From positions 1 through 63,752 of the forward strand of contig JAWXAN010000025.1 in NCBI GenBank assembly GCA_034439475.1: DNA of 63,752 bases, given 5' to 3'. A program made the position numbers and the translations under genes. A model generated the notes under the pieces. The model ran no database searches. It worked only from the letters and a program-made list of their open reading frames with translations, and had not been told where the DNA came from. How positions within the stretch are numbered: the first letter of the stretch is position 1; each line of letters starts with the position of its first letter. This DNA comes from Candidatus Zixiibacteriota bacterium (GTDB lineage: Bacteria > Zixibacteria > MSB-5A5 > GN15 > FEB-12). Shown here piece by piece: positions 11,050-60,927 of the stretch.

Positions 11050-12984
11050 TTAGTTGCCTTTTGTGGCGGTTCCCTTGCTCAGAATTTCTTCCTTAATCAT
11101 GTTAACAGCCGCTTCGGCCGGCTGAATCCCAATGTCGCCTGTGCCGTGCTTTCGTACAGCGACCGAGTTGGCTGAGGCTTCGCGCCCACCAACGATAAAC
11201 ATATACGGCGTCTTTTGCAATTCGGCATCGCGGATTTTTGCGCCAATTTTTTCGGAACGAGTGTCAATTTCGGCCCGAATCCGGTCCTTCCGCATCATTT
11301 CAACCAGTTCTTTGCCATACGGGATTTGATCGTCAGTAATCGGCAAAACCTTGACTTGGGTCGGAGCAAGCCACAACGGGAAATCACCGGCATAATGTTC
11401 AATTAGGACGCCAAAAAACCTTTCTATCGACCCAAGCAATGCCCGATGAATCATATATGGCCGCTTGGGTTGACCATCGCGATTGACATATGTCAGATCG
11501 AAGCGCTCAGGCAGACTGAAATCAAACTGAATCGTCGAGCACTGCCAACTTCGTCCAATGGCGTCCTTGATCAGAATATCAATCTTAGGACCATAGAATG
11601 CCCCGTCTCCGGCATTTATACCAAAAGGAAGGCCAGATTTTTCCAATGCACCGCGAAGACCATTCTCTGCCCTCGTCCAATCGGCATCTTCACCAATAGC
11701 TTTGGCCGGTTTGGTCGAGATGTTTATCTGGTAGTCTGTAAACCCGAAGGACTTGAGAATGTGGACGCAGAATTGCAAGAGCCATACAAGTTCGTCTTCC
11801 ATTCCCTCCTGCGTTACAAAGTGATGGGCGTCGTCCTGAGTAAACCCGCGAACCCTCATGAGTCCATGCAGTACCCCGGCTCTCTCGTAACGGTAGACTG
11901 TTCCCAGTTCCGCCCATCGGAGCGGCAGATCCCGATACGACCAGTGCCGGGCTTTATACATTTGAATATGGAAAGGGCAGTTCATCGGTTTAAGCTGATA
12001 TTTGCGCTCATCGACATCCATTGGAGCGAACATACTGTCGGTGTAGAAGTTGGTATGCCCGCTTTTTTTCCACAAAATCCTGTTTGCGATATGCGGTGAA
12101 TAAACCAATTCATAGCCATTACGCTGATGTTCTTCCCGCCAGAAATTTTCAATTTCGTTTCGGATGCGCGAGCCACGGGGCAGCCAGAGAATTAGTCCGG
12201 CGCCGACTTCTTCGGTAACGGTGTACAATTCAAGTTGTTTGCCGAGCATGCGATGGTCGCGCTTTTTGGCCTCTTCCTGGCGATGGACATATTCATCGAG
12301 CATTGCTTTTTTGGGAAATGAAACACCGTATATGCGCTGGAGCATCGCCCGCTTTTCATCGCCGCGCCAGTACGCGCCCGAGGTGGCTATCAATTTGACC
12401 GCTTTGATTATTCCAGTTTTGGGGATATGCGGTCCCCGGCATAAATCTTCAAAGCGCGACTGATAATAGAATGTGACGGTTTCGCCTTCGATCCCTTCTA
12501 GGAGTTCGGCTTTATACGGTGCGTTCCTTTTGCGAAAATAGTCTACTGATTCGAGACGGTTTTTTACTTCGCAGCGGAATGGGGCATTTTCTTCGACAAT
12601 CTCAGCCATGCGCTTTTCGATTTTGAGAAGGTCTTCGGGTGAGAAGGGCTTTTCGACATCGAAGTCATAATACCAGCCCTCGTCGATGGGAGGGCCGATT
12701 GCAAGTTTCACCCCCGGAAAAAGTTCCTGTACGGCTTGTGCCATTATATGCGAACTGGAATGCCAGAAGACTTCTTTTCCTTCGGCAGAATCAAAAGTCA
12801 AAATCTGGACCGGGGCATTTTGTGGAATAGGATAGGAGAGATCACGGATTATGCCGTCGACCTTGACAGCCACAGCATCTTTAGCCAACCGGGGTGAAAT
12901 AGACTCAGCGATTTGATAGCCGGTCGTGCCGGCCTGATAGTCCCGCACTGAACCGTCGGGCAACTGGATTTGAACTTGCGACAT
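11050..12984 (-). CDS. thrS: Threonyl-tRNA synthetase
   Basis: 644 aa, full length. Domain order: TGS (1-60, VQIQLPDGSVRDYQAG), the editing domain with HSSSHIMAQA near residue 75 and the conserved zinc/editing Cys region (ATSGAYWRGDE), the class II catalytic core (KPMNCPFHIQMYK; GLMRVRGFTQDDAH; GSIERFFGVLIEHYAG motif 3), and the anticodon-binding C-terminus. It charges tRNA-Thr and edits Ser-tRNA-Thr. The gene lies 76 nt after tRNA-Val and probably shares its promoter. I see no T-box or operator mimic in that gap. Confidence 0.97.
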   Translation of the reverse strand: MSQVQIQLPDGSVRDYQAGTTGYQIAESISPRLAKDAVAVKVDGIIRDLSYPIPQNAPVQILTFDSAEGKEVFWHSSSHIMAQAVQELFPGVKLAIGPPIDEGWYYDFDVEKPFSPEDLLKIEKRMAEIVEENAPFRCEVKNRLESVDYFRKRNAPYKAELLEGIEGETVTFYYQSRFEDLCRGPHIPKTGIIKAVKLIATSGAYWRGDEKRAMLQRIYGVSFPKKAMLDEYVHRQEEAKKRDHRMLGKQLELYTVTEEVGAGLILWLPRGSRIRNEIENFWREEHQRNGYELVYSPHIANRILWKKSGHTNFYTDSMFAPMDVDERKYQLKPMNCPFHIQMYKARHWSYRDLPLRWAELGTVYRYERAGVLHGLMRVRGFTQDDAHHFVTQEGMEDELVWLLQFCVHILKSFGFTDYQINISTKPAKAIGEDADWTRAENGLRGALEKSGLPFGINAGDGAFYGPKIDILIKDAIGRSWQCSTIQFDFSLPERFDLTYVNRDGQPKRPYMIHRALLGSIERFFGVLIEHYAGDFPLWLAPTQVKVLPITDDQIPYGKELVEMMRKDRIRAEIDTRSEKIGAKIRDAELQKTPYMFIVGGREASANSVAVRKHGTGDIGIQPAEAAVNMIKEEILSKGTATKGN

Positions 12985-42362: not shown

Positions 42363-43115
42363 TTACTGGCTGTCGCTTGAACCGTAGAGTTGCGACGACG
42401 GCTCTTTGAGGGTGAGTTCCATGGTGAGGATAACGATATCGACGCGGCGGTTTGTGGCTCGGTTTTCGATTGAATTATTTGGAACCAGCGGACGGTATTC
42501 GCCGTAACCGAGCGCGGAGATGCGGCTGGGGGCTAAGGCATGGTCATTTGTGTAATATCTGACGACTTCGGTAGCGCGAGCCGATGAAAGCTCCCAGTTG
42601 GAGGGATATAGCGAAGTGGCGATTGGCCGATCATCGGTATGTCCTTCGATTCGTACATGGTTTGGCAGTGGTTTGATTTCGCGGGAAATCAGATCAAGTA
42701 TCTCCAAGGCCTTCGGCTCTAAAGTGGCGGAACCATCTTTGAACAATGCTGATTCGAGAATGTGAATCACAAGACCGCGCTCGGTTATTTCAGATTGTAT
42801 CTCGTCTTCGCGCTGGAGCTTTTTGAATCTTTCCTGTACTCTATTCTTTATTGTCTTCAAACTTCCGGCGCGCAGTAGACTTTGGTTCACTTTAGGGGCA
42901 TCAAGCTCTTTAGCCTCACTGGGAACGACACTCTCCCCGCCTTTGAGAACGCCGTTGAGCGCCTCGGCAATTTTACCGAACTTTTTGGCATCGACCTGAG
43001 ACATGGAATACATGACGACAAAAAAGGCGAGTAACAATGTTATGAGATCGGCATAAGTCAGGAGCCAGCGTTCGTGGTTCTCCTCATTGCCGATCTCTCC
43101 CCGTTTTCGCGCCAC
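42363..43115 (-). CDS. motB: Flagellar stator protein MotB
   Basis: 250 aa. Single membrane helix at 18-40 with the proton-binding Asp (LLTYADLITLLLAFFVVMYS, D23), a plug/linker, then an OmpA-like peptidoglycan-binding domain (VRIEGHTDDRPIATSLYPSN, NWELSSARATEVVRYY). Anchors the stator to the cell wall. Sequence around D23 looks proton- rather than sodium-type, but this call is weak. Begins 3 nt after motA. Confidence 0.95.
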   Translation of the reverse strand: MARKRGEIGNEENHERWLLTYADLITLLLAFFVVMYSMSQVDAKKFGKIAEALNGVLKGGESVVPSEAKELDAPKVNQSLLRAGSLKTIKNRVQERFKKLQREDEIQSEITERGLVIHILESALFKDGSATLEPKALEILDLISREIKPLPNHVRIEGHTDDRPIATSLYPSNWELSSARATEVVRYYTNDHALAPSRISALGYGEYRPLVPNNSIENRATNRRVDIVILTMELTLKEPSSQLYGSSDSQ

Positions 43116-43118
43116 AGT

Positions 43119-43883
43119 TTAACGCTCTTCCCGGCGGCTTGACGGGGCAACAAACGAGAGAAGACGGGTGCGGATATTACGCGGGTTTTCCCCGGATTGA
43201 ATAGCCACGACACCCTCCATAATTAGTTCGAGGTTCGCCATTTCTTCTTCATGGCGAAGCTTGAGCTTATCTGACACAGGCAGGAAAAAGAGATTTGCCA
43301 GTCCTACTCCCCACAATGTGGCAATAAAGGCGCCAGCAATCGAAGATGCCATTTTTGAGGCATCGGTAGCGTTGCCAAGGGTGTGAACCAAACCTAAAAC
43401 TGTACCGAGTATTCCCAGAGTCGGGGCAAAACCGCCCGCTTTTTGAAAAAATACTATTCCGCGTTTGTGCCGTTGTTCGAGACATGACATTTCAGTTTCG
43501 AGTATCTCTCGAAGCACGGTAACCTCGGTTCCATCGATAAGAAGCTGTACAGCTTTATAGAAGAACGGATCAGTTATCTTTCGGAGGTCGTTCTCAAGTC
43601 CCAAAATTCCTTCGCGCCTCGCCTTTTCAGCCAGCTTGACCAACGAATCGATAGCATCAGGCAGACGGAGATTGTTGCGTTGGAAAGCAAGACGCAGATA
43701 GTTTGGTACTTGGAGGACTGTCTGGGTAGAGGTCGTGACCATCGTTGCGCCAAGTGTTCCGCCAACCACAAGCAATATTGGTGCGCCGAGGAAAATCGCA
43801 TCGAGATTGCCGCCTTCCAGAAGAAAGGCACCGCCTGTAGCGCTGACGGCAAGAATCAATCCAAAAAGAGTCGCAAAATCCAT
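43119..43883 (-). CDS. motA: Flagellar stator protein MotA
   Basis: 254 aa with four membrane helices. Conserved stretches: MDFATLFGLILAVSATGGAF, ILLVVGGTLGATMVTTSTQT, GFAPTLGILGTVLGLVHTLG (torque/proton prolines), SIAGAFIATLWGVGLANLFF. The cytoplasmic loop binds FliG. Has its own likely sigma28 promoter, as motility genes often do. Confidence 0.96.
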   Translation of the reverse strand: MDFATLFGLILAVSATGGAFLLEGGNLDAIFLGAPILLVVGGTLGATMVTTSTQTVLQVPNYLRLAFQRNNLRLPDAIDSLVKLAEKARREGILGLENDLRKITDPFFYKAVQLLIDGTEVTVLREILETEMSCLEQRHKRGIVFFQKAGGFAPTLGILGTVLGLVHTLGNATDASKMASSIAGAFIATLWGVGLANLFFLPVSDKLKLRHEEEMANLELIMEGVVAIQSGENPRNIRTRLLSFVAPSSRREER

Positions 43884-44047: not shown

Positions 44048-45400
44048 TTATGACGAGGGCTCCAGATCATATTCTGCAAGTTTATTACGGATGGTGCGCG
44101 CGGTCACACCGAGGACCTCTGCGGCCTTTGTTTTGTTGCCATTGAACTTCTCAAGCGTCTTGAGAATGAGGTATTTGCTACCCTCCTCGATTGTCATCGG
44201 AAGCTTAAGAGCGGAATTGGCATCGGCCATTTTCCCCAAAGACAGTTCGACCGGGAAGTCATCCTCGTTAAGATATTCCGCGCGGGTGGTCACGACCGCG
44301 CGTTCGATTAGATTTTCGAGTTCTCGCACATTGCCCGGCCAGTGGTATTTCATGAATAGGCGGAGCGCCTCGGGAGTCATGCCAAGGATATTCTTATTGT
44401 TTTCCTTGTTGTACTTTTGAATGAAATGATCTATCAGAAGCGGTAGATCCTCTTTTCTGTCATCAAGAGGCGGCAGATAAATTGGAATGACATTAAGTCG
44501 GTAGAATAGATCTTCGCGGAACTGCCCGGCGCTGATGAATTCTTTGAGGTTTCGATTTGACGTCGCAATAAGACGTACATCGACCTGAATTGTTTGGCTT
44601 GAACCAATGCGTTCGAATTCGCGCTCTTGAATCACGCGCAACAACTTTGATTGCAAATTGAGGGGCATTTCTGAAATTTCATCGAGAAGCAGAGTGCCGC
44701 CGTTAGCAAGTTCGAAGCGTCCTCTATTGGTTTTCTTGGCGTCGGTAAAGGCGCCTTTCTCATAACCGAATAATTCAGCCTCGACCAGATTTTCGGGCAA
44801 TGCGGCGCAATTGAGTTTTATGAAGGGGCCATTTCGCCGACTTGAGGCGTAGTGAATGGCTCTGGCAACCATTTCTTTGCCAGTCCCGGAAGCGCCCGTG
44901 AGCATAACTGTAGAACGGGCATCGGCTACCAATTGAATGAGCGAGAAAATCTCCGACATGATTTTTGATTTGCCAATAACGTTTTGAAAACGATGGGCAA
45001 GATCGTTGCGCAGAGATTCATTCTCTTTTCGGAGGTGGAGAATCTCAGACACACGGGTCAGGATCATCTCAAGCGTCTCGGGCAGGACGGGTTTGAGCAG
45101 AAAATCGTATGCCCCTTTTTTTACGGCCTTCACCGCAGTTTCTACAGAACCGTAGGCTGTCATGATGATTACTACCGTGTCTGGGCTAAGCCGTTTGACA
45201 TGATCGAGCAGGGCGATACCATCGACCTCTCGCATTTTCAGGTCGGAAAGCACTATGTCATACGACTTGGCTTTGATAGCAAGAATCGCTTCCTCGCCGT
45301 TGAAAACCGAATTGGTCGAGTATCCGGCCCGTTGGAGGGTTTCGGTCACGAACTCATTGACCAGATTGTCGTCATCGACGATTAGGACCGAATATTTCAT
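44048..45400 (-). CDS. NtrC-family sigma54 response regulator (FlgR/FlrC type)
   Basis: 450 aa. Receiver (1-120) with phospho-acceptor D53; AAA+ domain (about 140-370) with Walker A GASGTGKE, the sigma54 loop GAFTDA (natural variant of GAFTGA), GGTLLLDEISEMPL Walker B and the sensor regions; Fis-type HTH at the end (KTKAAEVLGVTARTIRNKL). It activates sigma54 RNA polymerase by ATP hydrolysis. One base separates it from the kinase gene upstream and motA lies about 160 nt downstream, so control of the sigma54 sites before flgB and flgF is the likely job. Confidence 0.93.
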   Translation of the reverse strand: MKYSVLIVDDDNLVNEFVTETLQRAGYSTNSVFNGEEAILAIKAKSYDIVLSDLKMREVDGIALLDHVKRLSPDTVVIIMTAYGSVETAVKAVKKGAYDFLLKPVLPETLEMILTRVSEILHLRKENESLRNDLAHRFQNVIGKSKIMSEIFSLIQLVADARSTVMLTGASGTGKEMVARAIHYASSRRNGPFIKLNCAALPENLVEAELFGYEKGAFTDAKKTNRGRFELANGGTLLLDEISEMPLNLQSKLLRVIQEREFERIGSSQTIQVDVRLIATSNRNLKEFISAGQFREDLFYRLNVIPIYLPPLDDRKEDLPLLIDHFIQKYNKENNKNILGMTPEALRLFMKYHWPGNVRELENLIERAVVTTRAEYLNEDDFPVELSLGKMADANSALKLPMTIEEGSKYLILKTLEKFNGNKTKAAEVLGVTARTIRNKLAEYDLEPSS

Positions 45401-45401
45401 T

Positions 45402-46736
45402 TCAGCTCTCCACTTTTATTTCAGTTTCGTCATTCAGGGCTCTCAATGATGTATCAAGCAAGGTGGGCAAGAGCACTACAAACTCCGCCCCTCCGTTCTT
45501 TCCATTTCGCGCGAGGATATCTCCTCCATGCGCTTTGATAACTTTGGCAGCCACAGCAAGTCCAAGTCCGTTGCCATCTACTTTTGTGGTGAAAAACGGC
45601 GCAAAAAGATTTTTCTCGGCCTCACGTGAGAGACCGGGGCCGGAGTCGCTAAAAATTGTTTCAACAAGTGTCTCGTCCAAACCCAGGATTATTCTATCTC
45701 CGTATCGTTGGGCGGCAAGCTGACGAGGCAGGCAGCGGTAGGATACAACAATTTCTCCGACTCCACGGCATGCCTCGGCCGCATTCAAGAGAAGATTGGA
45801 AAAGACCTGACGGCAGAGGATAGCATCGCACCAGAGCACAACCGGCAAGGCATTGTGAGGAGCACTATGATCGAGGCGGATTAAGAGACTGACAACCGCC
45901 GCTGGATTGTCGGCTTTGAAATGATCCACCGCTGACTGCAGAAATCCGTTATAGTCGACACGCTCACGGCGGAGGCTTTCGTTTCGAGTATAGTTGAGTA
46001 AGGTTGTGACAGTTTGATTCAGGGAATCAACACCGCGTATTATTTTGGTGACCAGAAGATGCCGGGGGTCATCCGGAGAAATATCTCTTTTAAGGAGCGA
46101 AGCAAAGCCCCCTATTCCGGCGAGCGGATTGCGAACCTCATGGGCGATTGTGGCGGCCATTTCGCCCAAAGCCGCCAAGGCCGCCAATCGGCCTATCTCC
46201 TGCTCCATTTTCTTGACTTTGGTCAAATCATGGAACATCTCCACCGCTCCGGAGGGCATACCGTCCTTATCATGCAAGAGAGCAGTGGATACCGATAGAT
46301 AGAGACGACTGCCATCAGAGAGATCGACCCTCTTCTCCACACCTTCAACAGTCTGTCCGCTTTCCGAGGCCCGGAGTGCATTGGCTTCGATCGGCTCACC
46401 CACCGGAATAGTATCACGATACAGTTTTCCAGTAGGATCTTTCAGAGGGATCCCGAGCAAACGGGAAGCGGCCGGATTGAAATGAGTAATGCATCCCGCC
46501 TTATCGACAGCGATCACTCCGGCAGAGATGGATTTAAGGATACCATTTAGAAATTCGGTTGCGGCCAATGTCTCTGAGGTTGCGGCGACAAGAAGCTTAT
46601 TGACCTGGACAAGCCGCTCGTTCTGGACAGTAAATTCATCATTTAATTCGATGTATTGCCGCTGGAGGCTGTTTACTAATCTATTGAACGAAGCGTAAGA
46701 TTCGGTAAAATTGGCGACACTTGTGGTTTCAGACAT
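45402..46736 (-). CDS. PAS sensor histidine kinase, soluble (FlgS/FlrB-like)
   Basis: 444 aa from ATG 46736 (GGTGG 6 nt upstream); ATG 46742 is the alternative. Coiled N-terminus with ESYASFNRLVNSLQRQYIEL, PAS domain about 65-180 (ILKSISAGVIAVDKAGCITH), HisKA with AATIAHEVRNPLAGIGGFAS and HATPase with FSDSGPGLSREAEKNLF, NGLGLAVAAKVIKAHGG. No membrane helices. This build matches the cytosolic kinases FlrB/FlgS that pair with flagellar NtrC regulators and read flagellar export-apparatus status. Partner gene follows immediately. Confidence 0.92.
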   Translation of the reverse strand: MSETTSVANFTESYASFNRLVNSLQRQYIELNDEFTVQNERLVQVNKLLVAATSETLAATEFLNGILKSISAGVIAVDKAGCITHFNPAASRLLGIPLKDPTGKLYRDTIPVGEPIEANALRASESGQTVEGVEKRVDLSDGSRLYLSVSTALLHDKDGMPSGAVEMFHDLTKVKKMEQEIGRLAALAALGEMAATIAHEVRNPLAGIGGFASLLKRDISPDDPRHLLVTKIIRGVDSLNQTVTTLLNYTRNESLRRERVDYNGFLQSAVDHFKADNPAAVVSLLIRLDHSAPHNALPVVLWCDAILCRQVFSNLLLNAAEACRGVGEIVVSYRCLPRQLAAQRYGDRIILGLDETLVETIFSDSGPGLSREAEKNLFAPFFTTKVDGNGLGLAVAAKVIKAHGGDILARNGKNGGAEFVVLLPTLLDTSLRALNDETEIKVES

Positions 46737-46778
46737 GCCCATCCACCTTCAGATGGGGACTTCCTGATATAGAATTAT

Positions 46779-46811
46779 ATGTGGCCATGCGACGCAAGCG
46801 TATCGCCACAT
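46779..46811 (-). promoter_or_regulatory. Palindrome containing a sigma54-like site before the kinase gene
   Basis: ATGTGGC at one end and GCCACAT at the other frame a strong hairpin. Inside it, minus strand 46793-46808 reads TGGCGAT-ACGC-TTGCG, with GG and GC at sigma54 spacing. It could be a promoter for kinase/regulator, a terminator-like structure after the CheA-like gene, or both; the 33-nt symmetry favours structure. Confidence 0.4.
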
Positions 46812-46869
46812 GGAAAAGTTTTCAACAAAAACTTTCATAAAAAACAAAATGACTTAAATAGAGCTTATT

Positions 46870-47799
46870 CTACTCAGGGATTGTAATCCTGAAGGTCGTA
46901 CCGATTCCTTTTGGGGAGGAAACCTCAATTGTGCCATTGAGTTCCTCGATCTGAGTCTTGACGCTGGTCAGACCAACTCCACGCCCCGACAATTCTGTAA
47001 GCGAAGAGGCAGTCGAAATGCCCGACTCGAAAATAAGTTGTGATGAGTGTTGCTCAGACATATGCTTTGATGCGGATCCGTACCGAACTGATAGCGCAAT
47101 TGCTTGTGATTTTATTGCCTCGACATTCAATCCGGTTCCGTCATCGCTTATCTCGATTATTAGCCACTGACCATCCTTGGAGGCTGAGATACTAATAGTT
47201 CCCATAGGGGTCTTTCCGACGGCTTGCCTCACCGAGGGCAGTTCAATCCCGTGGTCACAGGCGTTGCGAAGCAGGTGAATGAGCGGCGTTCGGAGCTTTT
47301 TGGCTGTTTGAAAGCTGAGCTCAAGCCCGTTTATCGGGCACTCAACCCGGATAGTTTTGCCGAGTTTCTTAGCAAGTTCAGCAATATGACCGCGAAACGA
47401 ATCTATAAACTCTGCAAACGGCATATTCATTCTTGGCTTCTTAGCTACGGCAGTTGTTTGCCGCACATTGTCAATGTGACATTTTAGCTCATTGATCGAA
47501 TTCTCAAGATTAACATCGCTTTTGGACAGAATCGAGGGGGTTCGCGATCTAATTTGAGACAGTACGGTTTCGAGTTTGTGCGCCGTTTTGACGATGTCCT
47601 CCAACTCAAGAAATGCCGCCGCTCCTTTTATGGAGTGGACAGCGTAGAAGAGGGCGTTGATTGCGTCTGTATTTTTAGGATTTTTTTCAAGAATTGAGCA
47701 ATTGTGGTGAATTGTCTGAAAAAGTAAATCCGCTTCAGTGAGGAATTCGCGGGTAATGTCGTTTATGTCTGAATCGGGCAAAAAGTGTGAATCGGCCAT
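46870..47799 (-). CDS. Truncated CheA-like kinase (Hpt + ATPase only)
   Basis: 309 aa. An Hpt domain at 10-110 has the phospho-His in AVHSIKGAAAFLEL (H55). From about 130 the CheA P4 ATPase follows: FRGHIAELAKKLGKTIRVEC, PLIHLLRNACDHGIELPSVR (N box), EISDDGTGLNVEAI (G1), ELSGRGVGLTSVKTQIEELN (G2), ending GTTFRITIPE. P2 is absent, no clear P3 dimerisation helices are seen, and the protein stops exactly where the CheW-like P5 would begin. It therefore cannot join a normal receptor array. A cheY lies 7 nt upstream as probable partner. Dedicated non-chemotactic phosphorelay is my inference. Confidence 0.88.
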   Translation of the reverse strand: MADSHFLPDSDINDITREFLTEADLLFQTIHHNCSILEKNPKNTDAINALFYAVHSIKGAAAFLELEDIVKTAHKLETVLSQIRSRTPSILSKSDVNLENSINELKCHIDNVRQTTAVAKKPRMNMPFAEFIDSFRGHIAELAKKLGKTIRVECPINGLELSFQTAKKLRTPLIHLLRNACDHGIELPSVRQAVGKTPMGTISISASKDGQWLIIEISDDGTGLNVEAIKSQAIALSVRYGSASKHMSEQHSSQLIFESGISTASSLTELSGRGVGLTSVKTQIEELNGTIEVSSPKGIGTTFRITIPE

Positions 47800-47806
47800 A
47801 ACCAGC

Positions 47807-48178
47807 TTACATGGATAAAACTTGGTCGATTTTCTGTTTCAACGTTTCCGGCGTGAAGGGTTTGACAACATAATTGTTTACCCCGATTCGCATCGCTTCC
47901 ATTATATCTTCCTTAATCGAGCGGGTAGTGACCATCAACACTGGAATATCTTTGAACTCATCCATTGACCGAATAACCTTCACAAATTCAAATCCATCCA
48001 TCTCCGGCATATTCCAGTCGGCAATGATAAAATTAAAGCGTTCGACTTTCATCTTAGCCAAGGCATCTTTACCGTCGACGGCTTCCACAACATCATCATA
48101 GCCGAAGCGCTTGAGGGTGTTGATAATAATCCGTCGCATAGTCGGGCTGTCATCAATTGCAAGAATTTTCAACTTCAC
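47807..48178 (-). CDS. cheY: CheY-like response regulator
   Basis: 123 aa, receiver only. IDDSPTMRRIIINTLKRFGY has the acidic pair; phospho-acceptor D54 in FIIADWNMPEMDGFEFVKVI; Thr85-type switch in VLMVTTRSIKED; Lys in YVVKPFTPE. The ADWNMP wording is classic motor-binding CheY. It likely carries phosphate from the CheA-like protein to FliM or to another target. Confidence 0.92.
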   Translation of the reverse strand: MKLKILAIDDSPTMRRIIINTLKRFGYDDVVEAVDGKDALAKMKVERFNFIIADWNMPEMDGFEFVKVIRSMDEFKDIPVLMVTTRSIKEDIMEAMRIGVNNYVVKPFTPETLKQKIDQVLSM

Positions 48179-48227
48179 TGTTGTAATTCCTTACTCACAA
48201 AAGTAGGATACACCGTTGAGCCATACA

Positions 48228-48602
48228 CTACTTCTTGTCGGCAGGTAGCTTTGATTCGACCAATTTGTAGAGCTGATTTATGTTGAATGGTTTGACAATA
48301 TAATCATCAGCTTTCATTCTCAGCGCGCTGACGGCTGTGTCAACCGATGGAAAACCGGTCATGAGAACAACTGGCAGTTCCGGATGGAGGGCTTTTGCCT
48401 TTTGAGCCAAAGTCAAACCATCCATTTCAGGCATTTTTATGTCTGTCAGAACCAAATCAACATGACGCAAGCGAAGCTGTTCAATCGCCTTTTCACCGTT
48501 CTCGGCGACTGCTATCTGCCAGCCTTGAGCGCTAAAAAAATCATAAAGCAGATCACGAATCAAGAGTTCGTCATCGACAACTAAAATCGAGGGTTTTGGC
48601 AT
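48228..48602 (-). CDS. Stand-alone receiver-domain protein
   Basis: 124 aa. SILVVDDELLIRDLLYDFFS, D54 in LVLTDIKMPEMDGLTLAQKA, PVVLMTGFPSVDTA, DDYIVKPFNINQL. Its sequence is nearer to NtrC/CpdR-type receivers than to CheY and it has no output domain. Lies between cheY and the STAS gene. Perhaps a relay or scaffold in the module; exact partner unknown. Separated from the STAS gene by 100 nt with its own promoter-like site. Confidence 0.88.
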   Translation of the reverse strand: MPKPSILVVDDELLIRDLLYDFFSAQGWQIAVAENGEKAIEQLRLRHVDLVLTDIKMPEMDGLTLAQKAKALHPELPVVLMTGFPSVDTAVSALRMKADDYIVKPFNINQLYKLVESKLPADKK

Positions 48603-48703: not shown

Positions 48704-49054
48704 TTAGCGTACAGCCAGAGCTTGGAAAGAAGACATCGCATCCTGTTCGGTCGGGAAAATCTCAAAAATATGCGACAGCTGGGTGATATCAAAGATTTCC
48801 TGAACATAGGTTGCAAGATTGGAAAGGGTCAATCTCCCCTTTTTCAAGCGAGTCTCTTTCATGACCGACACCATTGCGCCGAGGCCCGAACTGTTGATGA
48901 ATTCTACCTCGCTCAGGTTCATGTGAACCGATGAGATATTTTTGGCGAGCAGCTTACGTACCTGCTCCTTTAAAGCTGTTCCGCTGGCCAAATCAAGTCG
49001 CCCTTTGAGTTTCAAAATGGCAACCGCTCCTTCTTCTCGTACTGTGATTTCCAT
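48704..49054 (-). CDS. STAS-domain anti-anti-sigma factor (RsbV/SpoIIAA-like)
   Basis: 116 aa from ATG 49054, chosen because GGAGG lies 5 nt upstream within the longer frame. STAS fold: MEITVREEGAVAILKLKGRL, DLASGTALKEQVRKLL, and VEFINSSGLGAMVSVMKET with the serine pair (55-56) that an RsbW kinase phosphorylates. In partner switching the unphosphorylated form sequesters the kinase and frees the target. Next to an RsbW-like and a PP2C gene, it completes the set. Confidence 0.92.
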   Translation of the reverse strand: MEITVREEGAVAILKLKGRLDLASGTALKEQVRKLLAKNISSVHMNLSEVEFINSSGLGAMVSVMKETRLKKGRLTLSNLATYVQEIFDITQLSHIFEIFPTEQDAMSSFQALAVR

Positions 49055-49073
49055 GACTTCCTCCATCTAAGTT

Positions 49074-49499
49074 TTATGAACTAATATTTTGTTTTACTTG
49101 CCGCGCCAAACTAAGTGTGACCTTTAATCCGCCCGAGGGAGTCTGGGTGAATTGGGATGTTGTCGCATAATGACGGATAAGGTCTATCCCCCGGCCGCTT
49201 TCAGAGAGCGGCGGAGGTTCGATACGAGACCAAATCTGTTTCAAGCCTTCTTTCCCTTCGTCAATAATTTCAGCAGAGAGAGTTTCTTCGTCGAGATCAA
49301 GTTTCACTTCTATCTTTTTTTGGGAATTCTGTTTGTTGCCATGAACAAGCGCATTGATGAATGCTTCGGATACTGCCAGTGTAAACTTATTTGTATCCTC
49401 TTCACTGAGATCGTGCTCTTTCAATACCCGAAAGAGATCATCGAGCATCTGTTCCTCGGCTTCGGGGGCGGATGAATAGAAATATTTATATGTGGCCAT
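49074..49499 (-). CDS. RsbW/SpoIIAB-like serine kinase
   Basis: 141 aa GHKL ATPase: N box VSEAFINALVHGNKQN, G1 EIIDEGKEGLKQIW, G2 SESGRGIDLIRHYA. The family phosphorylates STAS proteins and may hold a sigma factor or other partner. No sigma factor lies nearby. Placed 1-2 nt after the phosphatase gene and 19 nt before the STAS start. Confidence 0.9.
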   Translation of the reverse strand: MATYKYFYSSAPEAEEQMLDDLFRVLKEHDLSEEDTNKFTLAVSEAFINALVHGNKQNSQKKIEVKLDLDEETLSAEIIDEGKEGLKQIWSRIEPPPLSESGRGIDLIRHYATTSQFTQTPSGGLKVTLSLARQVKQNISS

Positions 49500-49501
49500 G
49501 T

Positions 49502-50797
49502 CTATTCTATCCTAATCTGTACAAGGGTAAAGTCGTCATGGTTTTCTTCTGACGACCCCTCGGAGAACTGGTCTATATGCTTTTTGAGTCGGTCGCAGAA
49601 GACGGCCGGAGGATGGATAATTTCATCACGAAAGAAATTAACAACCCGCTCGCGCCCAAAGAGATTGTCGTAACGGTCGGTGGCTTCGGTAAGGCCGTCG
49701 GTAAAGAGAAAGAGCCCGTCGCCTGATTTGATGACATGTGTACCCTCCTCAAAGGGAATGCCTTCAAATTGGCCAACAATCGGGCCGCCGACAGATAACT
49801 CATCGACTCGCTTATTCTGCGAATCCCAAAGTAGTCCCGGGATATGTCCGGCATTGCAATAGGTAAGGCGTTCGCTTTGTAAATCTATCATGCAAAAGAA
49901 GAGCGTCACAAACATTTGGTGTTCTTTGATTATTTCGCGTGCCAAGAGATTATTTAGCCGTTCGGCGAGTTTGCCGACCTGGATATTAGGCTCGCTTGAC
50001 AATATGGACTTAATTATTCCCGATGATGCCGACATGACAAGCGCTGCCGGGACGCCTTTGTTCGAGACGTCGCCTACAATAACATAGAATTTCTTGTCGC
50101 TAATTTTGATGATATCATAAAAGTCGCCGCCGACTTCCCGGGCGGGGTAATAAACCGTAGCAATTTCGGCTCCGCTGATGCTGGTAATGTCACGCGGAAG
50201 AATAGTTGATTGCACTTGGCCGGCGATAACCATCTCCTGCTCCATGTGCTGTTGGCGAAGTTTATCTTTTACAAGTTGCGAGTTGTCAATCGCGACCGCG
50301 ACAAAATTGAGAAGCATTTCGAGTCGCTCAGAGTCGTCTGCGCTAAAATTATCACCGTCAATCTTATTGATGATGACAAGCACGCCATAGCATTTATCTC
50401 GCGTCTTGATCGGCATGACGATCACAGAATCTATTTTGATACCGGTGTCAGCTGATTTGGTTTTGAGGTCATGAAGTATGACGGCTTCCTTGTAGGTATG
50501 GCAATACGTTGCCAAGTCCGCACCACGAGGGTGCTTCAGTGTTGTAATAAACTCCTCGTTCACGCCCCAGCATGTTTTGAGTTTGAGCCTTTCGTCTTCT
50601 TCGAGCATGATAAAGCCGACCTCGCCATCAAGTAGGCGGAGGGTCATATCCATCACAACCGACAGTACGGCATCGATTTCATGAATCGAGGCAATGACTG
50701 CGCCCATCGTGGCGATATCACGAAGCTCGGCCTTCTGAGAAGCGAGTTTGGCTTCCAGGACCTCGACATCGTTCTGGTAATCAAGTGAGGTAAGCAT
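49502..50797 (-). CDS. GAF-PP2C (SpoIIE/RsbU-type) phosphatase
   Basis: 431 aa from ATG 50797; the longer frame to 50905 adds residues with no family match. Short coiled coil (VEVLEAKLASQKAELRDIAT), GAF domain about 20-165 (LSVVMDMTLRLLDGEVGFIM; IDSVIVMPIKTRDKCYGVLV), then PPM/PP2C core with metal sites in AREVGGDFYDIIKI, VGDVSNKGVPAALVMSASSG, FLFTDGLTEATDRY and ENHDDFTLVQI. It removes phosphate from the STAS protein when the GAF senses its cue. Head gene of the module. No strong ribosome site for either start. Confidence 0.9.
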   Translation of the reverse strand: MLTSLDYQNDVEVLEAKLASQKAELRDIATMGAVIASIHEIDAVLSVVMDMTLRLLDGEVGFIMLEEDERLKLKTCWGVNEEFITTLKHPRGADLATYCHTYKEAVILHDLKTKSADTGIKIDSVIVMPIKTRDKCYGVLVIINKIDGDNFSADDSERLEMLLNFVAVAIDNSQLVKDKLRQQHMEQEMVIAGQVQSTILPRDITSISGAEIATVYYPAREVGGDFYDIIKISDKKFYVIVGDVSNKGVPAALVMSASSGIIKSILSSEPNIQVGKLAERLNNLLAREIIKEHQMFVTLFFCMIDLQSERLTYCNAGHIPGLLWDSQNKRVDELSVGGPIVGQFEGIPFEEGTHVIKSGDGLFLFTDGLTEATDRYDNLFGRERVVNFFRDEIIHPPAVFCDRLKKHIDQFSEGSSEENHDDFTLVQIRIE

Positions 50798-50950
50798 ACG
50801 TTTGATATATCGACAGGATAGGGAATAAATGAAGTCGGGATGGGGAGGAAAGTCTGAGGGGGTTGGGGTGTAGACAAGCCGCAAGAGGAAATATGAGATT
50901 GCCACGTTTTACTTAAGAAAGAGAAACTCGCAATGACGGGGCGGGGAAAA

Positions 50951-60358: not shown

Positions 60359-60417
60359 TTGGTTCTCGTTACTTGTGAAAAGACGTTTTTCATACGATAT
60401 TGGTGTAGAAAGTGACC

Positions 60418-60927
60418 ATGAACAAGAAGAAATCGCAGACAGATAAAATGTTTTCAATCCGACGCTCTCCGATACAAGGCACGGGTGCATTCGCCAAGCA
60501 GAGAATCCGTAAGGGAACTCAGATTATCGAATACACTGGAAAACGAATTACGCCCGAAGAGCAGGATAGTTTATACGATGACGACAAAATGGAACGTCAC
60601 CATACCTTTCTTTTTTATGTCGACGAAAATACGACTATCGATGGCTCGCGGGGTAACAACCAGTCCCGCTACATCAACCACTCCTGCGATCCGAACTGTG
60701 TTTCGCTTACTGATGATGGCCGCGTATTTATCGAGGCTTTGAGAAATATCCAACCGGGCGTTGAATTAACTTATGATTACGCCTACATCCGGACTGGGCG
60801 GTACAAAAAAGAATGGGATACACTCTATGCCTGCTCATGCGGCTCGGCGAATTGCCGCGGGACAATTATGTGGCGTCCGAAGAAGAAGAAAAAAAAGAAA
60901 GCCAAAACAAAAGCCAAAGCCGTGTAA
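60418..60927 (+). CDS. SET-domain lysine methyltransferase-like protein
   Basis: 169 aa. SET core at about 12-150: FSIRRSPIQGTGAFAKQRIR, RGNNQSRYINHSCDPNC (the NHSCxPN SAM-binding motif), VELTYDYAYI with the catalytic Tyr, and a post-SET zinc cluster YACSCGSANCRGTIMW. The C-terminal tail is nearly all Lys/Ala. This is the eukaryote-like SET form that methylates lysines in histones or ribosomal proteins; bacterial examples are scattered. ATG 60418 is preferred over GTG 60412; ribosome site weak. Alone on plus, divergent from glyA. Substrate unknown. Confidence 0.88.
   Translation: MNKKKSQTDKMFSIRRSPIQGTGAFAKQRIRKGTQIIEYTGKRITPEEQDSLYDDDKMERHHTFLFYVDENTTIDGSRGNNQSRYINHSCDPNCVSLTDDGRVFIEALRNIQPGVELTYDYAYIRTGRYKKEWDTLYACSCGSANCRGTIMWRPKKKKKKKAKTKAKAV

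Follow-up and report, generated by a model that had tools for sequence, protein, structure and literature searches.

The window analysed here is a stretch of 63,752 nucleotides from a Candidatus Zixiibacteriota genome, in which a reduced cheA gene (46870..47799) lies among flagellar genes; all the genes of this locus and the gaps between them are on the reverse strand. The gene has an ATG start, encodes 309 amino acids, and was characterized by Pfam, PDB sequence matches, alignment, AlphaFold and Foldseek. A cheY gene encoding 123 amino acids (47807..48178) is located 7 bp upstream, in agreement with an earlier sequence-only reading of this DNA that had placed it directly upstream, and it is intact, with its phosphorylation-site aspartate and the other active-site residues retained. 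Beyond a 49 bp gap (48179..48227), where by synteny the relatives have cheR and a second receiver gene (REC2), follow a single-domain, NtrC/DctD-like receiver (REC, 48228..48602) and a partner-switch set consisting of a STAS protein, an RsbW-like ATPase and a GAF-SpoIIE phosphatase (48704..50905), both assigned by Pfam and synteny. In nearly all relatives, chemotactic or not, these partner-switch genes adjoin the flagellar locus, and no sigma factor is seen beside them. Downstream of cheA, a gap of 127 bp (46743..46869), which by spacing and synteny corresponds to the cheB slot of the relatives, leads to a flrB-like PAS kinase and a flrC-like sigma-54 activator (44048..46742; Pfam and synteny), found downstream in the relatives as well, and then to motA and motB (42363..43883; synteny). 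Elsewhere in the window, a 171-aa open reading frame (60412-60927) looks, by eye, like a SET-domain methyltransferase.

Two domains account for the short CheA. Pfam recovers Hpt (P1) at residues 16-87 (4.8e-11) and HATPase_c (P4) at residues 171-308 (2e-18), and no CheW (P5), P2 or H-kinase_dim (P3) match above its cut-off, so that the earlier description of a protein with Hpt and ATPase domains and no P5 is confirmed. The PDB sequence matches are likewise to CheA P4 (1i58, residues 127-308) and to CheA P1 (1tqg and 1i5n). An AlphaFold model built with 28 CheA homologues as input (mean pLDDT 87, pTM 0.62) displays, in line with the alignment, four helices that form the P1 bundle (residues 9-118; 47446..47775), a poorly defined linker of about six residues (119-124; 47428..47445) and the ATPase fold of P4 (125-308; 46876..47427), the last of which matches the crystal structures of Thermotoga maritima CheA P4 in Foldseek with target TM scores of 0.85-0.93. 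At the linker position the relatives carry a linker of about 70 aa and the P3 dimerisation hairpin. The hairpin is absent from the model and the short CheA matches 2 of 19 near-invariant P3 residues; this loss of P3, seen by Pfam and in the model, had been overlooked in the sequence-only reading. The stop codon lies one residue past P4, at the point where P5 starts in the relatives, so the protein indeed ends right before P5, as had been proposed. P2 had been listed as missing too and is in fact not found by Pfam, but this is no peculiarity of the short protein: the full-length CheA of the one relative whose domains were checked by Pfam (L033, 8867-10636) comprises Hpt, H-kinase_dim, HATPase_c and CheW and is also P2-less, hence the absence of P2 is most likely ancestral.

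The catalytic apparatus is well preserved in both domains. In P1, the phospho-acceptor His55 (codon 47635-47637) stands in an intact HxxKG motif (HSIKG), and Lys58, His74 and Glu77 are present. P4 has N, G1, F and G2 boxes of the CheA type, with the N-box (HLLRNACDHG), DDGTGL and GRGVG intact and one of the two F-box phenylalanines replaced by Ile261. The main catalytic residues are thus all retained on closer alignment, where their loss had been envisaged as an argument against the kinase. With 42-43% identity to the closest full-length relative, the domain is still recognizable as a CheA P4. The protein is therefore CheA-derived and may work like CheA, while it fails two of the defining domains, P3 and P5.

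The origin of the gene is indicated by its position. The corresponding locus of about 30 relatives runs der-spoIIE-rsbW-STAS-HEAT-REC-cheR-REC2-cheY-cheZ-cheA-cheB-flrB-flrC-motA-motB; its cheA encodes about 600 aa, and cheZ and cheB are variably present. The HEAT, cheR, REC2, cheZ and cheB genes are missing from the window locus, and the short cheA, flanked by cheY and flrB, sits in the cheA slot. Because this is the slot of the full-length cheA in the relatives, the short gene is a reduced orthologue of the flagellar cheA, neither the product of a fission nor an import. The relatives carry P5 inside their full-length CheA and not as the separate adjacent gene that a fission would imply, and the 127 bp to flrB leave no room for P5 downstream of the short cheA. 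Gene fission with a P5 nearby is ruled out, given that no CheW-domain match exists in the window genome, and a split CheA is rejected as well, as neither another Hpt nor a CheW domain that could form a second chain occurs in the genome. An assembly or frameshift artefact is unlikely in view of the intact flanking genes, the short gap to flrB and a second genome with identical architecture. The HEAT gene, which in chemotactic relatives lies between STAS and REC and encodes a 635-aa HEAT-repeat protein (L033, 4100-6007), is also missing in several CheA-less genomes.

The reduction of CheA is accompanied by the loss of the array. In searches of the window genome, a draft of 2.66 Mb in 82 contigs that is 98.7% complete, CheW, the MCP signalling domain, CheR, CheZ and CheC gave zero matches, and a P5/CheW domain was not matched anywhere in it; none of the seven family members tested has CheC. 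Across the order, the same searches recover CheW in 65 of 79 genomes and MCP in 59 of 79, which indicates that they work, and CheW is usually multi-copy in the relatives. It is unlikely that all the array parts are hidden in the missing 1.3% of the genome. The previous remark that no CheW or receptor gene lies nearby thus extends to the whole genome, and the idea of a receptor-independent kinase is well supported by the lack of CheW, chemoreceptor and P5 matches in so complete an assembly. Furthermore, the genome contains exactly one Hpt domain, that of the short CheA, which makes its own P4 the most obvious kinase for P1.

A second short CheA was revealed by a P1-P4 profile search of 132 genomes of the phylum, of which one other, the near-complete G041, encodes such a protein (309 aa; L031, 9227-10156). 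It is 30% identical to the window protein, with the same architecture and the same slot, and cheY is again the nearest gene; an Hpt-P4 CheA next to cheY, which the sequence-only reading had suggested looking for in other genomes, therefore exists. CheW and MCP have no match in G041, while cheR, REC2 and HEAT remain at its locus; the methyltransferase gene cheR (L031, 7304-8425) is retained, yet no chemoreceptor is matched in this near-complete genome. Among 395 genomes of another phylum, no contiguous short P1-P4 occurs among the matches listed (down to about 139 bits), and a search for related loci among genome contigs returned longer CheAs only. The CheA tree groups the two short forms (98/98), on very long branches whose lengths saturate under a mixture model, and in the marker tree the two genomes are neighbouring basal lineages for which a single clade is not rejected (AU p 0.18).

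The second case and INTERMEDIATES were compared over G041, G045, G010, G043, G015, G016, G017 and G030, which represent various stages of loss. G045, a draft genome that is 93% complete, has a CheZ-CheA fusion with P3 and P5 present and gives no match to a separate CheW or MCP; here a CheZ-like domain and a full-length CheA share a single 792-aa reading frame (L044, 684-3059), possibly a kinase-phosphatase fusion and an intermediate stage of the reduction. G010, rated 100% complete, has cheR, REC2, cheY and cheZ and lacks cheA, with no match to CheA, Hpt, CheW or MCP; its cheY and cheZ are intact, with cheR upstream of them (L191, about 11900-12941). In G043 only cheY was found, without any CheA. 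At the locus of G015, G016, G017 and G030 both cheY and cheA are missing; these genomes match neither CheW nor MCP, and have FliM retained. Chemotaxis has thus been dismantled repeatedly in the family of the window bacterium, with the flagellar genes kept. Moreover, the link between CheA and CheY is not absolute in the family, since G010 and G043 have cheY without cheA.

These later stages raise the possibility that the short cheA is a decaying remnant, being lost after the receptors and with no present function. The very long branches of the short CheAs (1.64 and 2.97 in the CheA tree, where the median is 0.2) would fit such a decay. However, the frame runs uninterrupted for 309 codons, although a random sequence of the same composition would be expected to contain about 15 stops, and the codon-position composition resembles that of the neighbouring genes. 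Selection was assessed on columns with 90% identity or more across 27 full-length CheAs, and, for a functional set of 20 (the phospho-acceptor histidine and its neighbours, and the N, G1, F, G2 and GT boxes) picked from general CheA knowledge after the alignment was seen, the window protein keeps 20/20 functional residues against 54/124 of the others (Fisher p 5e-7), and G041 19/20 against 45/124 (Fisher p 5e-7). In G041, the Asp located three residues past the N-box Asn is replaced by Ala, and there are further changes in the F-box, the GT motif and elsewhere in the lid. The fast change falls mainly on positions other than the catalytic residues, particularly in P1 and the N-terminal part of P4, and the very long branches imply that constraint on the rest of the protein is relaxed or shifted. 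A pseudogene is ruled against by the open frame and the complete functional set, and the selective retention of catalytic residues in both lineages, in a P4 that is still so clearly a CheA domain, argues against decay. This argument is weakened, not removed, by the late choice of the functional set and by the consideration that such residues may change more slowly in any CheA, and decay is regarded as an unlikely explanation.

If the short CheA is active, CheY is most likely its target. The FliM N-terminal CheY-binding peptide is present in the window genome, which might appear to couple CheY to the motor; the peptide is also retained in relatives without CheA, and is uninformative as a test of this coupling. 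The suggestion that the kinase feeds the motor consequently remains plausible on account of the adjacent, intact cheY, while the FliM peptide does not discriminate. The alternative that it feeds the neighbouring partner-switch is unsupported, because the REC, STAS, RsbW and SpoIIE genes persist in relatives from which cheA and cheY are both gone, and are thus not tied to the short CheA. Similarly, REC is unlikely to be a dedicated partner, since it is present in relatives with or without cheA.

A broader version of this alternative is an active kinase with another target, such as REC, FlrC or a distant regulator, and an output in gene regulation instead of the motor. Receivers do lie nearby, and CheA-type kinases with alternative functions are known (PMC10782961); on the other hand, relatives that have no cheA still carry REC and FlrC, FlrC has its own adjacent kinase, FlrB, and in both genomes with a short CheA no gene lies closer to it than cheY, which leaves this proposal as improbable as decay. 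Least probable of all is regulation by a new route through a non-CheW partner, for example via the altered N-terminal P4 or an extended last P1 helix: the fast change outside the catalytic residues would fit old contacts lost and new ones formed, but relaxed constraint accounts for the same pattern and no candidate partner was found.

The reading we favour, and consider probable, is that the short CheA is a still-active kinase driving CheY, a free-standing generator of CheY-P and no sensor of gradients, in a cell with neither an array to couple to nor a recognised phosphatase for CheY-P. The reduced architecture, the missing array, the syntenic orthology, the preferential catalytic retention and the intact adjacent cheY are retained as observations, from which we infer autophosphorylation, in cis or in trans, CheY as the target and the motor as the output. 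The flagellar cheA would have shed P3 and P5 either once CheW, the chemoreceptors, CheB, CheR and CheZ were lost or together with them. P4 would bind ATP and phosphorylate His55 of P1 without array control, and P1 would in turn phosphorylate the CheY whose gene lies 7 bp upstream. Once phosphorylated, CheY would act on the FliM switch and set a basal rate of motor switching, or of stopping; ATP, or a partner of unspecified kind, could serve as an alternative input. CheA without receptors has a low basal activity, which weighs more when CheZ is absent, so the loss of CheZ could allow even a kinase running at a low basal rate to hold CheY-P at a useful level.

Several points count against this favoured reading. 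CheA normally phosphorylates in trans within a dimer formed by P3, and as P3 is missing, the activity of the short CheA could be low. The replacement of the F-box Phe by Ile261, and in G041 the Asp-to-Ala change after the N-box Asn together with the F-box and GT changes, may also speak against catalysis. In addition, the short CheA evolves far faster than other CheAs. Finally, CheY may have a CheA-free role or phosphodonor, because cheY survives without CheA in G010 and G043. A more far-reaching formulation, that a two-domain P1-P4 CheA without dimerisation domain, adaptor, receptors or array is a sensor-less CheA-CheY generator which sets the flagellar motor bias, the pathway pared down by gene loss to its minimum and then maintained by selection, is offered tentatively, at somewhat less than even chances.

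The short CheA departs from the known variants of this kinase. It shares the slot, P1 and P4, the catalytic residues and the adjacent CheY with the canonical flagellar CheA of its own family, which is P1-P3-P4-P5 and P2-less as in L033 (8867-10636), but it has no P3, no P5 and hardly any linker, and its genome is without CheW, receptor, CheR and CheZ, with no cheB at the locus. The split CheA3 and CheA4 of Rhodobacter sphaeroides likewise lack some core domains, CheA3 being without P3 and P4 and CheA4 without P1, and work as a complex (PMC3591291), whereas the short CheA unites P1 and P4 in a single chain, and its genome has neither a second piece nor a CheW domain. Bipartite CheAs, in which Hpt is a separate gene, also deviate from the five-domain plan, but they keep P3, P4 and P5 (PMC10782961), while the short CheA lacks P3 and P5. 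No report of a P5-less CheA was found in literature searches. Berry, Andrianova and Zhulin found P1, P3, P4 and P5 in all 13,673 CheAs, with the CheW domain in 100%, and stated that no system lacks a receptor, CheA, CheW or CheY (PMC10782961), although their collection may by design exclude forms such as this one.

That study treats P1, P3, P4 and P5 and the receptor-CheW-CheA-CheY chain as an indispensable core (PMC10782961). If the short CheA is under selection without P3, P5, CheW and receptors, the kinase and its motor output would be separable from sensing and still useful, and it would provide a natural minimal CheA for biochemistry, for example on whether P1-P4 works in cis. Together with its relatives, the short CheA forms a stepwise record of how chemotaxis is dismantled while the flagellum stays.
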